From: Micromonospora profundi
GTDB lineage: Bacteria; Actinomycetota; Actinomycetes; Mycobacteriales; Micromonosporaceae
Assembly (NCBI RefSeq): GCF_011927785.1
Contig: NZ_JAATJK010000001.1
Location: 2,418,001 to 2,482,000, forward strand
DNA length: 64,000 nt
Direction of reading: 5' to 3'
Part shown: positions 25,730-36,843 of the stretch, one piece after another
Numbering within the stretch: the first letter of the stretch is position 1
How the letters are laid out: each line of letters begins with the position of its first letter
The notes under the pieces: generated by a model
Database searches by the model: none
Seen by the model: only the letters and a program-made list of their open reading frames with translations
Told to the model about the DNA's origin: nothing
Position numbers and translations under genes: made by a program

Positions 25730-26062
25730 TCAGCGGACGGGAGCCGGCGCGACAGTGGGCGTCTGGGCGTGGATGTGGAAGCGCAGCGAGCGGGCGTCGG
25801 TGAAGCACTCCCGCATGGGCCGCACCAGGTCCCGGTGCTCAGGGCTGCGTTCCCAGGTCTCGAAGTCGGCGAGGCTCGCCCACTCGCTGGTGATCAACCA
25901 CTGCTCCGGGTCGGTCGACGAGCGGCACACCTGGTCGACCAGGTGCCCCGGCACCCCACCGGCCACCAGGTGCCGCACCTGCTCGTACGCGGCAAGGAAC
26001 GCCTCCGTACGCGGCTCCGGCACCCGTACCAGGAAGACCACCCGGGCTCGCTGCTCGCTCAT
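25730..26062 (-). CDS. Antibiotic biosynthesis monooxygenase (ABM) domain protein, TcmH-like
   Basis: A 110-residue ferredoxin-like ABM-fold protein. RVVFLVRVPEPRTEAFLAAYEQVRH, WLITSEWASLADFETW and SPEHRDLV are typical. Small ABM proteins such as TcmH and ActVA-Orf6 oxidise anthrone-type intermediates to quinones without metal or flavin. Last gene of the type II PKS operon; its ATG overlaps the CLF stop by four bases. The likely role is C-H oxidation of the aromatic product. Activity is inferred from family and position. Confidence 0.85.
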   Translation of the reverse strand: MSEQRARVVFLVRVPEPRTEAFLAAYEQVRHLVAGGVPGHLVDQVCRSSTDPEQWLITSEWASLADFETWERSPEHRDLVRPMRECFTDARSLRFHIHAQTPTVAPAPVR

Positions 26063-27306
26063 GACGTTCCTCCCGCCGTCGGCGCGGCCCCCCGCAGGAC
26101 CAGCGCGCTGTTGAACCCGTCGAAGCCCCGCGCGCAGACAAGCGCCAACCGGCGGTTCGGCCGGCGGTGCTCCCGCAGGAAGTCCAGTTCGCACCCGTCG
26201 GCCACCTGATCCGGGCCGGCGGACGCGGGCAGTGTGTCGTGCGCGAAGGCGAGCAGCGCGGTGGCCACGTCCAACGCCGACCCGCCCTGGTGTGCGCGCC
26301 CGGTCAACGACTTGTGCGTTGTCACCGGAGGCGGCCGGTCGGCGAACACCGCGCGCAGCGCCTGGGCCTCGCTGCGGTCGTAGCGGGGCACGCCGAGCGC
26401 GTCGGGCACCACCACGTCGATCCCGGCCGCCGAGACGCCCGCCCGGTCCAGGGCCAGTCGCATGGCGCGGGCGTACTGGATCGGATCGCCCGCGCTGTCC
26501 GCCGTGGTGTGGGCAGCGTCGTGGGTGGAGCCCCAGCCGCTGACCTCGCCGTAGACCCGGGCGCCGCGCGCCAAAGCGTGCCCCAACTCCTCCACCACGA
26601 ACACCGCGCCGCCCTCGGCCGGCAGGTAGCCGCTGGCCGTGGCGTCGAACGGCCGGTACGCCCGCTCCGGGTCGGAGACGTCGCTGAGCAGTCCCGAGCG
26701 CAGTTGGCAGGCCAGCGCGTACGGGCTCAGCGGGCACTCGGTCGCCCCGGCGATCACCACAGGCGTGCCCCGGCGTACCGCACGGGCCGCGTGCGCGAGG
26801 CTGTCCAGCCCACCGGCGGCCTCGGCGACAAGCACGCCACTCGGGCCCTTGAACTGGTGGTGGATGGAGAGCTGCCCGACGCTTGCCGCATAGAACCAGG
26901 CGATCGACTGGTACGCGCCGACAGTGCGCGACGTACCGCCCCAGAGGCGTTGCAGCTCCCGCTGGCCGAACAGGTTGCCGCCGGACGAACTGGCCAGGGT
27001 CATGGCGTAGCCGTACGGGTCGGGTGCCCGCTCGGGCAGGCCGGCATCGGCCAGGGCCAGTCGGGTGGCGGCGAACCCGAGGTGCGTCCACCTGTCGGTC
27101 TGTACCAGTTGCCGGCTGCCGGCGTACGCGTCGGCGGCGAAGCCTGGCACCTCCCCGCCGTACCGGGTCGGGTAGTCCGACGGGTCGAACAGCGTGATCG
27201 GTCCGGTGCGGCGGGTGCCGGCGAGGACCGTACGCCAGTGCGCGTCCACGCCGATTCCGCTGGGCGCGACCACGCCGATGCCGGTCACCACTGCCCGGGC
27301 TGTCAC
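26059..27306 (-). CDS. Type II PKS chain length factor (ketosynthase beta)
   Basis: A 415-residue thiolase-fold partner of KSalpha. It keeps the CLF framework ([31 protein letters not shown]) but lacks the Cys-His-His triad of a true ketosynthase. The equivalent of the active-site Cys, normally Gln in CLFs, is Ala163 in [14 protein letters not shown] sets polyketide length and takes part in priming, so loss of the Gln may change how malonyl-ACP is decarboxylated. GTG start overlaps the KSalpha stop (GTGA). The chain length of the product cannot be read reliably by eye. Confidence 0.93.
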
Positions 27307-28574
27307 GCCACCGCTCCGGTCAGGCGGCGGAACACCATCGCCGACTGGAAGCCACCGAAGCCGCTGCCCACCGACAGGGCCACGTCCACCGGGACCTCGC
27401 GTGCCTCGTTCGGTACGTAGTCGAGGTCGCATTCGGGGTCGCGGGTGCTCCAGTTGGCGGTGGGCGGAACCACGCCGAACTCGATGGCGAGCGCACACGC
27501 GGCCATCTCGATGGACCCGATGGCACCGAGCGAGTGCCCCACCATCGACTTGATCGAACTGATCGGCACCCGGTACGCGGCCTGGCCCAGCGCCCGCTTG
27601 AACGCTGCCGTCTCGTGCCTGTCGTTCTGCCGCGTGCCGGAGCCGTGGGCGCTGATGTAAGAGACCTGCTCGGGGGCGATCCGGCCCTGCTTGAGCGCGT
27701 CGGTGACCGCCAGGCCCATCTCCAGCCCGTCCGGGCGCAGCCCGGTCATGTGGTAGCCGTTGCTGCGGCTGGCGTACCCGGCGACCTCGCAGTAGACGTG
27801 CGCTCCGCGCCGGCGGGCGTGCCCGGCCTCCTCCAGCACCAGCACCGCCGCGCCCTCGGCAAGCACGAACCCGTGCCGGTCGGCGTCGAACGGGCGGGAG
27901 GCGTGCGCCGGGTCGTCGTTGTCCGGGCTTGTCGCCTTGATGGCGTCGAACGAGGCGACGGTGACAGGTGAGATCGGCGAGTCGGCGGCGCCGGCCAGTA
28001 CCACATCGGCCTCACCGTCGACGATCATCTGATGGGCGTAGCCGATGGCGTCGATGCCGGAGGTACAGCCGGTGGAGACGACCTGCGCCGGGCCGTGCAG
28101 GCCGTGCCGGCAGGCCACGTCGGCGGCCAGGCTGCTGGGCACCAGCGCCTGATAGAGGTACGGGCCACCGCGCGCCGCGTCGACAAGCCAGCGTCGCCCG
28201 TGCTCGCTGACCCGGACGTACTCCTGCTCCAGGGCCGTCGTGCCGCCCACCGCCGTACCGAGCACCACCCCGGCCCGATCCCGCTGCGCGTCGGTCAACT
28301 CCAGGCCGGCGTCGGCGACCGCCTCGGCCGCGCAGGCAAGCGCGAACTGCACGTACCGGTCGGCCCGGCGTCGCTCGGCGTCGGTCAGCCCGGCGGCGAC
28401 CGGATCGAAGTCGCACTCGGCGGCGATCTGCGAGCGGAACGCCGACGGGTCGAAGAAGCTGATCCGCCGGGTGGCCGTACGCCCCTCGGTGATGGTCTTC
28501 CAGAAGCGGTCCCGGCTCGCGCCGCCGGGTGCGACCACCCCGACGCCTGTCACCACAGTGCGCCGCCCGGTCAC
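27303..28574 (-). CDS. Type II PKS ketosynthase alpha
   Basis: A 423-residue beta-ketoacyl synthase that condenses malonyl units on the ACP. Catalytic residues are Cys170 (STGCTSG), His310 (HGSGTRQND), Lys342 (SSIKSMVG) and His347 (GHSLGA), all intact. The QNDRHETAA stretch is characteristic of aromatic type II KSalpha rather than fatty-acid FabF. The GTG start overlaps the cupin gene's stop, and the stop overlaps the CLF start, so KS and CLF should be made in equal amounts. Together with CLF and the ACP domain it forms the minimal PKS. Confidence 0.96.
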
Positions 28575-35492: not shown

Positions 35493-35493
35493 C

Positions 35494-36843
35494 GTGCCCA
35501 CCGCGCCGCCACACGTCCTGATCATCGGAGCTGGCACCGGCGGGCTGTGCCTGGCGCACGGGTTGCGTCGCGCCGGGATCAGCGTCGCCGTCTACGAACG
35601 GCACCAGCACCGCTCCGGAGGGCTGCTCGGCTACCGGGTGGGCATCGGTCCGACCGGCACGCGAGCGCTGCGCGACTGTCTGCCACCGGACGTGTTCGCC
35701 ACCTTCCTGGCCACCTGCGCCCAGGCGCCGCGCTACTTCAACGTGCTCACACAGAAGCTGACCGAGACCGCCTCGTTCGAGCTGCGACCCGCCGTCGACC
35801 CGGTGCACACCGAACACTCGGTGAGTCGCATGACGATGCGCCAGGTACTGCTGACCGGCCTGGCCGACGTGGTGCACTTCGACAAGACCTTCATCCGGTA
35901 CGAGCAGCACGACGACGGTGACGTCACCGCGCACTTCGCCGACGGCACCACCGCCACCGGTGACCTGCTGGTGGCCGCCGACGGCACGCACTCGGCGGTA
36001 CGCCGGCAGTACCTGCCGCACGCCGTCATCCGGGACGCCGGCACCATCAACATCGCCACGCGGATCCCCCTGACCCCGCACACCCGTGACCTCCTGGCCG
36101 AGCGCGTCCGTACGGGCATCTCGCTCATCTTCGGCACCGGCGGCACCATGGGCGTGCTGCACGTCATGGAGTTCCCCTGGCACACCGACCGGACGATCAA
36201 GAAAGGTGTCAGCGCCGACCGCGCCGCCCTGCTGCGGGCCTGGCCCGGCCTGTCGCAGGACACCAGCACCGACCACATCAACCTGATCATCTGGAGTACG
36301 GCCCGCCGCTTTCCCGCCGATGTCATGCGGATGCGGGGCGACGACCTGATCGGACTGGCCCTGGACCTCACCCCGAACTGGCATCCGCACCTGCGGGAGT
36401 TGCTCAGTCGCGCCGATCCGGGCAGTGCCCTGCCGATCAGGGTGAGCACGTCCGAGCCGACGCCGCCCTGGAAGAGCACGACAGTCACGCTGCTCGGCGA
36501 CGCCATCCACACCATGACACCGGGGCGTGGGGTGGGAGCGAACACCGCGCTGCGCGACGCCCGTCTGCTCTGCGAGCAGCTCGCCCGCGCCGTCGACGGC
36601 GACAAGACGCTGGTGCAGGCGGTGGCCGACTACGAGGCAACGATGGTGCCGTACGGCTTCGCACGGGTCGCCGAGTCGCTCAACCGCAGCGGTACCAGCG
36701 GCGACGACCGGATGTACCGGCCGGTGGTGGGTCGGCTCGCGTTGCTCGGGGCGCGGGGCTACTTCGGGGTGACCAGCCGGGTGCCGAGACTGCGCCGCCG
36801 ATTCGTCAACGACTTCCACACCTACGAGGGCGACCAGGACTGA
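35494..36843 (+). CDS. FAD-dependent aromatic monooxygenase (PHBH type)
   Basis: A 449-residue flavoprotein hydroxylase. The GAGTGG dinucleotide-binding motif is at residues 12-17, the DG-type ADGTHSAVR segment near residue 160, and the second FAD motif GDAIHTMTPGRGVGAN near residue 334. Homologues such as TcmG and WhiE-ORFVIII hydroxylate polycyclic aromatic intermediates. GTG start one base after the cyclase stop. A hairpin follows, marking the likely right end of the PKS cluster. Confidence 0.9.
   Translation: MPTAPPHVLIIGAGTGGLCLAHGLRRAGISVAVYERHQHRSGGLLGYRVGIGPTGTRALRDCLPPDVFATFLATCAQAPRYFNVLTQKLTETASFELRPAVDPVHTEHSVSRMTMRQVLLTGLADVVHFDKTFIRYEQHDDGDVTAHFADGTTATGDLLVAADGTHSAVRRQYLPHAVIRDAGTINIATRIPLTPHTRDLLAERVRTGISLIFGTGGTMGVLHVMEFPWHTDRTIKKGVSADRAALLRAWPGLSQDTSTDHINLIIWSTARRFPADVMRMRGDDLIGLALDLTPNWHPHLRELLSRADPGSALPIRVSTSEPTPPWKSTTVTLLGDAIHTMTPGRGVGANTALRDARLLCEQLARAVDGDKTLVQAVADYEATMVPYGFARVAESLNRSGTSGDDRMYRPVVGRLALLGARGYFGVTSRVPRLRRRFVNDFHTYEGDQD

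Follow-up and report, generated by a model that had tools for sequence, protein, structure and literature searches.

A probable pigment-type polyketide synthase cluster of Micromonospora with an acyl carrier protein fused to its aromatase/cyclase

Does a compact aromatic type II polyketide synthase (PKS) cluster, found in the genome of Micromonospora profundi, stand for a new product or for an ordinary one? The analyzed stretch, referred to as the window, is 64,000 nucleotides long and corresponds to positions 2418001-2482000 of a 6.93 Mb single-contig genome; the cluster occupies window positions 25730-36843. A first-pass annotation, made from the sequence alone, had proposed an unreduced polycyclic aromatic or a spore pigment, possibly novel. 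The results point, with a probability of roughly 0.8, to a vertically inherited whiE-type type II PKS of Micromonospora and near kin, whose predicted product is a dark, unreduced aromatic pigment, formed late in growth and most likely destined for the spore wall. It is a known, genus-wide, pigment-type cluster with clade-specific features, not a new product family.

The distribution was evaluated by using as a query the ACP-cyclase, an acyl carrier protein (ACP) fused to an aromatase/cyclase. It has a match in 36 of the 37 genomes from this genus, that of M. profundi included; the sole miss (G010) is an assembly of about 800 contigs. The best protein match, 90%, is from Micromonospora luteifusca, and named loci reach 94%, all of them Micromonospora at that level. 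Scanning named genomes turned up 338 stretches that encode a relative, and the best 79 loci were retained: 75 belonging to Micromonosporaceae (L017-L091: Micromonospora, Verrucosispora, Salinispora, Plantactinospora and one unclassified) and four, indicated as Streptomyces-side (L092-L095). Named Micromonospora, Salinispora and Plantactinospora retain the operon order as far as their contigs extend, module losses excepted. In a tree of the core genes the six sampled Salinispora loci fall together and, rooted on Plantactinospora, the tree looks vertical, as judged with no species tree for comparison. Spread by plasmids was rejected: plasmid matches account for no more than 11% of the cluster DNA, and nowhere on a plasmid is 80% of the ACP-cyclase covered. 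The match on a Pseudonocardia plasmid consists of separate ACP and cyclase genes, lying among sugar genes.

Both whiE genes and a black pigment have already been published for these bacteria (PMC5765111, PMC4255298, PMC12838356). Sections of Carro et al. 2018 (PMC5765111) report whiE-ks, whiE-clf, whiEI, II, VI and VII in all tested Micromonospora strains except M. cremea, and suggest the black pigment of Micromonospora as the product of the whiE genes; these are very probably the same cluster. The fusion, the carboxylase, the regulator and the chain-length factor substitution described below go unmentioned in the sections of that paper drawn on here. Chater and Chandra (PMC4255298), in the relevant portion of their article, place Micromonospora and Salinispora among the genera with a whiE-like pathway, and an excerpt of PMC12838356 describes, for all Salinispora strains, a type II PKS thought to make black spore pigment. 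In part of the M. lupini genome paper (PMC4182475), a type II PKS cluster that may be the present one is marked as conserved among most of the relatives compared there. In the open literature searched no description of the chemistry of the black Micromonospora pigment was found. Given the conservation across the genus and these reports, the suggestion of possible novelty does not hold, and a novel orphan antibiotic cluster was rejected.

The layout given by the first-pass annotation, nine genes on the minus strand and three on the plus strand in two divergent arms, was borne out by gene models, Pfam and homologues. Third-position GC backs most of the twelve reading frames and homologues of all twelve are present in other species, so that they are not chance frames. 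The overlapping stops and starts, noted for all nine leftward genes, are found at seven of the eight junctions, by 4 or 8 bases; the remaining one, between biotin carboxyl carrier protein (BCCP) and biotin carboxylase, is a 19-base gap. From left to right, the minus-strand arm starts with an ABM-family oxygenase (25730..26062; Pfam PF03992; whiE-ORFI-like), which is 46-52% identical to the ABM of the four Streptomyces-side, whiE-type loci. It is followed by the KSbeta, or chain-length factor (CLF; 26059..27306; Pfam ketoacyl-synt; best PDB chain 1tqy_B), by the KSalpha (27303..28574; Pfam; best PDB chain 1tqy_A), whose Cys-His-His motifs are found in 79 of 79 aligned KSalpha rows, by a TcmJ/WhiE-II-type cupin cyclase (28571..28966; Pfam Cupin_2; 59-62% to the four Streptomyces-side loci) and by the ACP-cyclase (28959..29711).

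These genes, together with a TcmI-type cyclase, are all matched in the four Streptomyces-side loci, in one consistent order. The minimal PKS (KSalpha, CLF and the ACP domain of the fusion) is present with intact active-site motifs (TGC, AHGSGT and KSMVGH in KSalpha, GMDSL in the ACP), as are the ABM, cupin and TcmI-type genes, which correspond to I, II and VII of a whiE numbering that, beyond the names used in the cited papers, we take to be the usual one. No PF04673 protein is found in any of 14 control genomes, and the whiE cluster of S. coelicolor could thus be compared only through its PDB entries. NCBIfam has no name for either TcmI-type cyclase, for the cyclase of the ACP-cyclase or for the ABM. 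Streptomyces whiE loci share with the window ABM, cupin, KSalpha, CLF, ACP, a WhiE-VI aromatase/cyclase, a TcmI-type cyclase and, in the two loci examined for it (L092 and L093), a divergent flavin oxygenase. The window differs from them by the ACP-cyclase fusion, two TcmI-type cyclases, a rearranged order, a SARP, a flavin oxygenase of another subfamily, carboxylase genes (also in L092) and the CLF site described below (A/S/T instead of E). Since its divergent flavin oxygenase belongs to that other subfamily, the relation to whiE is claimed for the core genes only, and the cluster is taken to work like whiE.

The ACP (residues 1-80, approximately) and the WhiE-VI-type aromatase/cyclase (about residues 85-235) were recognized in one frame by Pfam, sequence and structure comparison. 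By sequence, the cyclase domain is closest to PDB entry 3tvr, with 208 bits versus 170 for TcmN. The AlphaFold model of the fusion (mean pLDDT 87.2, pTM 0.73) finds its best Foldseek matches in whiE-ORFVI of S. coelicolor (3tvr, 3tl1), at 61% identity; TcmN entries follow at 52-53%. The identity to whiE-ORFVI points to an aromatase/cyclase of the C9-C14 type, a regiochemistry predicted from likeness. The ACP-cyclase is the only ACP seen in the cluster, and the operon has no room for another ACP gene.

ACP and cyclase share one open frame in 75 of 75 Micromonosporaceae loci and in 0 of 4 Streptomyces-side loci, within a locus set that was gathered with the fusion protein itself as query. In L092 and L093 the two are separate frames, 3 bases apart. 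In a class-wide sample of 296 genomes, 51 have an ACP-cyclase match at E 1e-20, and the three from Micromonospora itself are fused. The other 48 matches begin at residue 60 or later: none of the 17 inspected is fused, eight of them having an ACP-like match nearby, outside the open frame of the cyclase, and nine lacking one; the remaining 31 are represented by their match range only. A family-wide sample of 200 genomes yielded 90 with a match, at least 55 of which, including other genera of the family, are fused, by reading of the listed matches: 42 show a single match over both domains, and in 13 the match falls into two pieces within an open frame of equal length. One stop was flagged in three of the 42, each of which proved to be a single open frame. 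The two motifs, of ACP and cyclase, are 64-66 residues apart in 66 of 76 rows; the ten other rows have spacings of up to 90. No description of an ACP-cyclase fusion of this kind, or of the CLF substitution, was identified in the literature searched.

In the CLF, the position of the actinorhodin (act) factor residue which we take to be Gln161, mapped by alignment to 1tqy_B, is occupied by Ala. All 75 Micromonosporaceae rows, the window included, have A, S or T there, and all four Streptomyces-side rows have E. A wider set of 65 CLFs was composed of the 30 best loci minus a duplicate of the window, 20 chosen from further down, the window itself and 15 chosen named loci. Glutamine is found there in 0 of the 37 sequences with an N-G-L or N-G-I gate (G in 15, S in 10, A in 8, T in 4), versus 19 of the 28 others. 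These are related sequences, and parsimony requires only four changes at the site: the 37 glutamine-less CLFs are therefore a property of a clade, not 37 independent events. The glutamine is the residue proposed for malonyl-ACP decarboxylation, and its loss suggests that priming may here be independent of it. The gate residues, at what are presumably act positions F109, T112 and F116, are N, G and L in the window and G, G and L in the Streptomyces-side CLFs. All are smaller than in act; if these positions set chain length, as we assume, a chain longer than C16 is therefore expected. By analogy with whiE, the length is probably about C24. KSalpha, CLF and cupin are full-length open frames in all 75 rows, and so is the ACP-cyclase in all 76 of its rows.

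The fusion and the glutamine-less CLF might together describe a type II system that is naturally half-assembled, with first-ring folding in cis and, across the sampled clade with the N-G-L gate, priming without the CLF glutamine. This proposal is tentative and is more doubtful than not; if true, the clade would offer a natural test of the role of the CLF glutamine, and of why type II PKSs stay dissociated.

Some further genes vary in presence among the loci. Minus-strand carboxylase genes follow the ACP-cyclase: biotin carboxylase (AccC; 29708..31150; Pfam), BCCP (AccB; 31170..31727), which is recognized from an intact EAMKLMN motif and from homologues in other loci, and a fused carboxyltransferase beta-alpha with a zinc ribbon (AccD-AccA; 31724..33472; Pfam), whose start was taken as the GTG at 33472. 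Sixty-three loci have both SARP and ACP-cyclase. AccDA and biotin carboxylase lie in between in 54 of them and are both missing from nine, where 357-878 bases are left. Presence and absence require four parsimony changes on the core tree, and one of the four Streptomyces-side loci (L092) also has carboxylase genes. On this pattern the carboxylase set is a variable module, with a predicted role in supply.

TcmI/WhiE-VII-type cyclase 1 (33469..33807, minus strand; Pfam PF04673) and TcmI-type cyclase 2 (35145..35492, plus strand; Pfam) are 63% identical. Both are near full length in 58 of 63 covered rows, the window included. Cyclase 2 stands alone in L080, L081 and L083; L071 combines a full cyclase 2 with a fragment of cyclase 1, and in L066 a broken cyclase 1 is all that remains. 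Cyclase 1 is thus lost or broken in four loci that keep cyclase 2, the reverse being unseen in intact clusters. Mutual redundancy of the two was considered and dropped: L066 has no intact TcmI-type cyclase, and the cyclase 1 of L071 is a fragment.

The plus-strand arm ends with a class A flavin oxygenase of 449 aa (35494..36843). Its best scores, none of which reaches a curated cut-off, are to HpxO- and TetX-like enzymes; alignment with the RdmE-like enzyme of L093 (549 aa) is limited to short stretches. Presence of the oxygenases, defined as at least 75% coverage, was evaluated in 57 loci covered on both flanks, the window excluded. Flavin oxygenase and ABM are both present in 43 and both absent in 12; L066 and L071 have fragments at most. 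In none of the 57 is one found intact without the other. Four independent joint losses are placed on the tree, all concordant, too few for significance (sign test, p 0.125). From this co-occurrence we infer that ABM and flavin enzyme may serve one tailoring step or sequence. L066 and L071, from M. qiuiae and M. endophytica, are decaying clusters: KS, CLF, cupin and ACP-cyclase are open, flavin oxygenase, ABM and cyclase 1 are missing or fragmentary, and the carboxylase is gone.

The plus-strand arm begins with a SARP-type regulator (34236..35051), identified by Pfam BTAD; its AfsR-family match is weak and far below cut-off. A direct repeat, GTGACG-N5-GTGAC, occurs twice in the window (33889..33904, minus strand; 35048..35063, plus strand), versus 0.18 copies expected; one of 100 shuffles reached two. 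Genome-wide there are 13 copies, 11 of them outside the window, and none of the reversed-pattern control. Both window copies begin 97 bases before the start codon of an operon, in sense direction: cyclase 1 for the former, cyclase 2 for the latter, which overlaps the SARP stop codon. In 60 regions, the window included, the repeat is found on the cyclase-1 side in 42 (0 matches in 3000 base shuffles) and on the cyclase-2 side in 45; the pattern is absent from 18 and 15, respectively. On the cyclase-2 side it mostly starts 86-102 bases before the start codon (66-67 in L046, L068 and L084), and the position of the SARP stop codon varies between -4 and 232; in L080 and L081 the repeat is inside the SARP gene. 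Its position being kept while the stop codon shifts, coding constraint does not explain it. An 11-base period fits SARP binding sites, and the repeat is plausibly an operator, a candidate for SARP control of both operons. The only sigma-70-like match of the region (34056..34083, plus strand; 0.2 expected), presumably the promoter of the SARP gene, lies before it in a block conserved across 60 aligned intergenic regions. The shared promoter motif, the rarity of the ACP-cyclase, the CLF substitution and the joint oxygenase loss are additions to the first-pass annotation.

A scheme may be drawn from these predictions. The cluster's own AccABCD would supply malonyl-CoA, from which KSalpha-CLF would build a long poly-ketone, probably about C24, on the ACP domain. 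The chain would pass in cis to the cyclase domain of that polypeptide, which would close and aromatize the first ring; cupin and TcmI-type cyclases would close the remaining rings, and ABM and flavin oxygenase would jointly oxidize the core. The SARP is predicted to activate both arms via their common 11-base-spaced direct repeat.

Some observations weigh against a whiE-type pigment. SARPs are typical of antibiotic clusters. L092 and L093 carry, divergent from the ABM, a gene with a flavin-monooxygenase-like start, RdmE-like by family score in L093; the RdmE-like hydroxylase is, as we take it, whiE VIII, and the divergent flavin oxygenase of the window belongs to another subfamily. Intact oxygenases are lacking in 14 of the 57 covered loci, two of which (L066, L071) also have a broken cyclase 1. 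A KSalpha/CLF phylogeny had been proposed as a check: in the CLF tree, obtained by a quick method with midpoint root and some long branches, the clade does not group with the four Streptomyces-side, whiE-type CLFs but is split from them by a branch with 91% SH-aLRT, and orthology of the CLF with that of whiE is therefore unproven. The tcm/whiE-like content, the unreduced aromatic product and the spore pigment, all put forward in the first-pass annotation, do find support in the likeness to WhiE-VI and in the matched gene set.

A diffusible antibiotic of tetracenomycin or pentangular type, under SARP control, is an unlikely alternative to the pigment; the SARP and the candidate operator common to both arms lend that alternative some weight. 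Part of PMC4383371 describes tetracenomycin and pentangular clusters as combining cyclases of the TcmI, TcmJ and TcmN types, and the window shares with tcm these types and the lack of an early ketoreductase. Its cyclase domain is nearer to WhiE than to TcmN, and the O-methyltransferases that we take to belong to tcm are missing. Pentangular clusters feature, according to the same part of PMC4383371, a C-6 ketoreductase and two adjacent ABM genes; the window cluster has one ABM and no ketoreductase. A dedicated acetyl-CoA carboxylase is also found, along with a WhiE-like PKS and a SARP, in the persiamycin cluster of Streptomonospora, whose product is an antibiotic; as far as the passages used from PMC7296137 go, that cluster has separate ACP and aromatase genes, glycosylation genes and a reductase. 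By Pfam, no ketoreductase, methyltransferase or glycosyltransferase is present among the genes of 25730-36843, as first noted, nor was any exporter or resistance gene found there. Near-universal presence in the genus and a tree that looks vertical are, moreover, unlike most antibiotic clusters. A decaying relic, making nothing, is highly improbable: oxygenases, carboxylase or cyclase 1 are indeed lost or broken in some lineages, down to L066 with its lack of any intact TcmI-type cyclase, but all twelve window genes are intact, the core frames are full in every row, KS and ACP motifs are kept and promoter blocks are conserved.

As a product lead, the pigment cluster is an ordinary, genus-wide one, which dereplication may set aside. 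For biochemistry it offers an expressible ACP-aromatase/cyclase fusion, a natural CLF clade that lacks the glutamine found in the actinorhodin factor, and a candidate SARP regulon that is compact and has two promoters; on the pigment reading, a set of genes could also be assigned to the black Micromonospora pigment.

One candidate for the missing ketoreductase, the SDR gene at 22732-23628, was rejected: it lies beyond SHMT and is strongly matched (at least 75%) in four of the 79 related loci, many of the 79 ending short of it. Four matches came from a search of the genome with KSalpha: KSalpha itself, its CLF, one of 36% elsewhere, probably FabF, and one, probably a type I module, in a far longer frame. 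KSalpha and its CLF are thus the sole type II pair found in this genome. Six same-genus genomes (G006, G013, G024, G029, G030, G034) feature a second cyclase-domain locus, 48-58% identical, perhaps belonging to other type II PKS clusters. In M. chalcea and kin, M. yasonensis and M. haikouensis, a separate module follows the pigment operon (L046:13892-20684, L062:14045-20596, L075:9122-11662, L082:14475-20399), with an AMP-ligase (Pfam, L046), a PPTase (Pfam, L082) and small ACP-like genes, one or two in number, plus additional ketosynthases on contigs that extend far enough; it is not seen beside the cluster of the window. Elsewhere in the window, two genes of about 970 codons lie in overlapping frames on opposite strands (46328-51689), the minus-strand one encoding a LuxR-type AAA regulator and the plus-strand one an adenylate-cyclase/AAA protein, and two right-handed beta-helix proteins, at 8356-10113 and 41109-42620, flank the cluster region. 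Adjoining the cluster, at 25379-25678, is a 99-aa protein with no Pfam match, 81-97% identical where matched, mostly beside SHMT.

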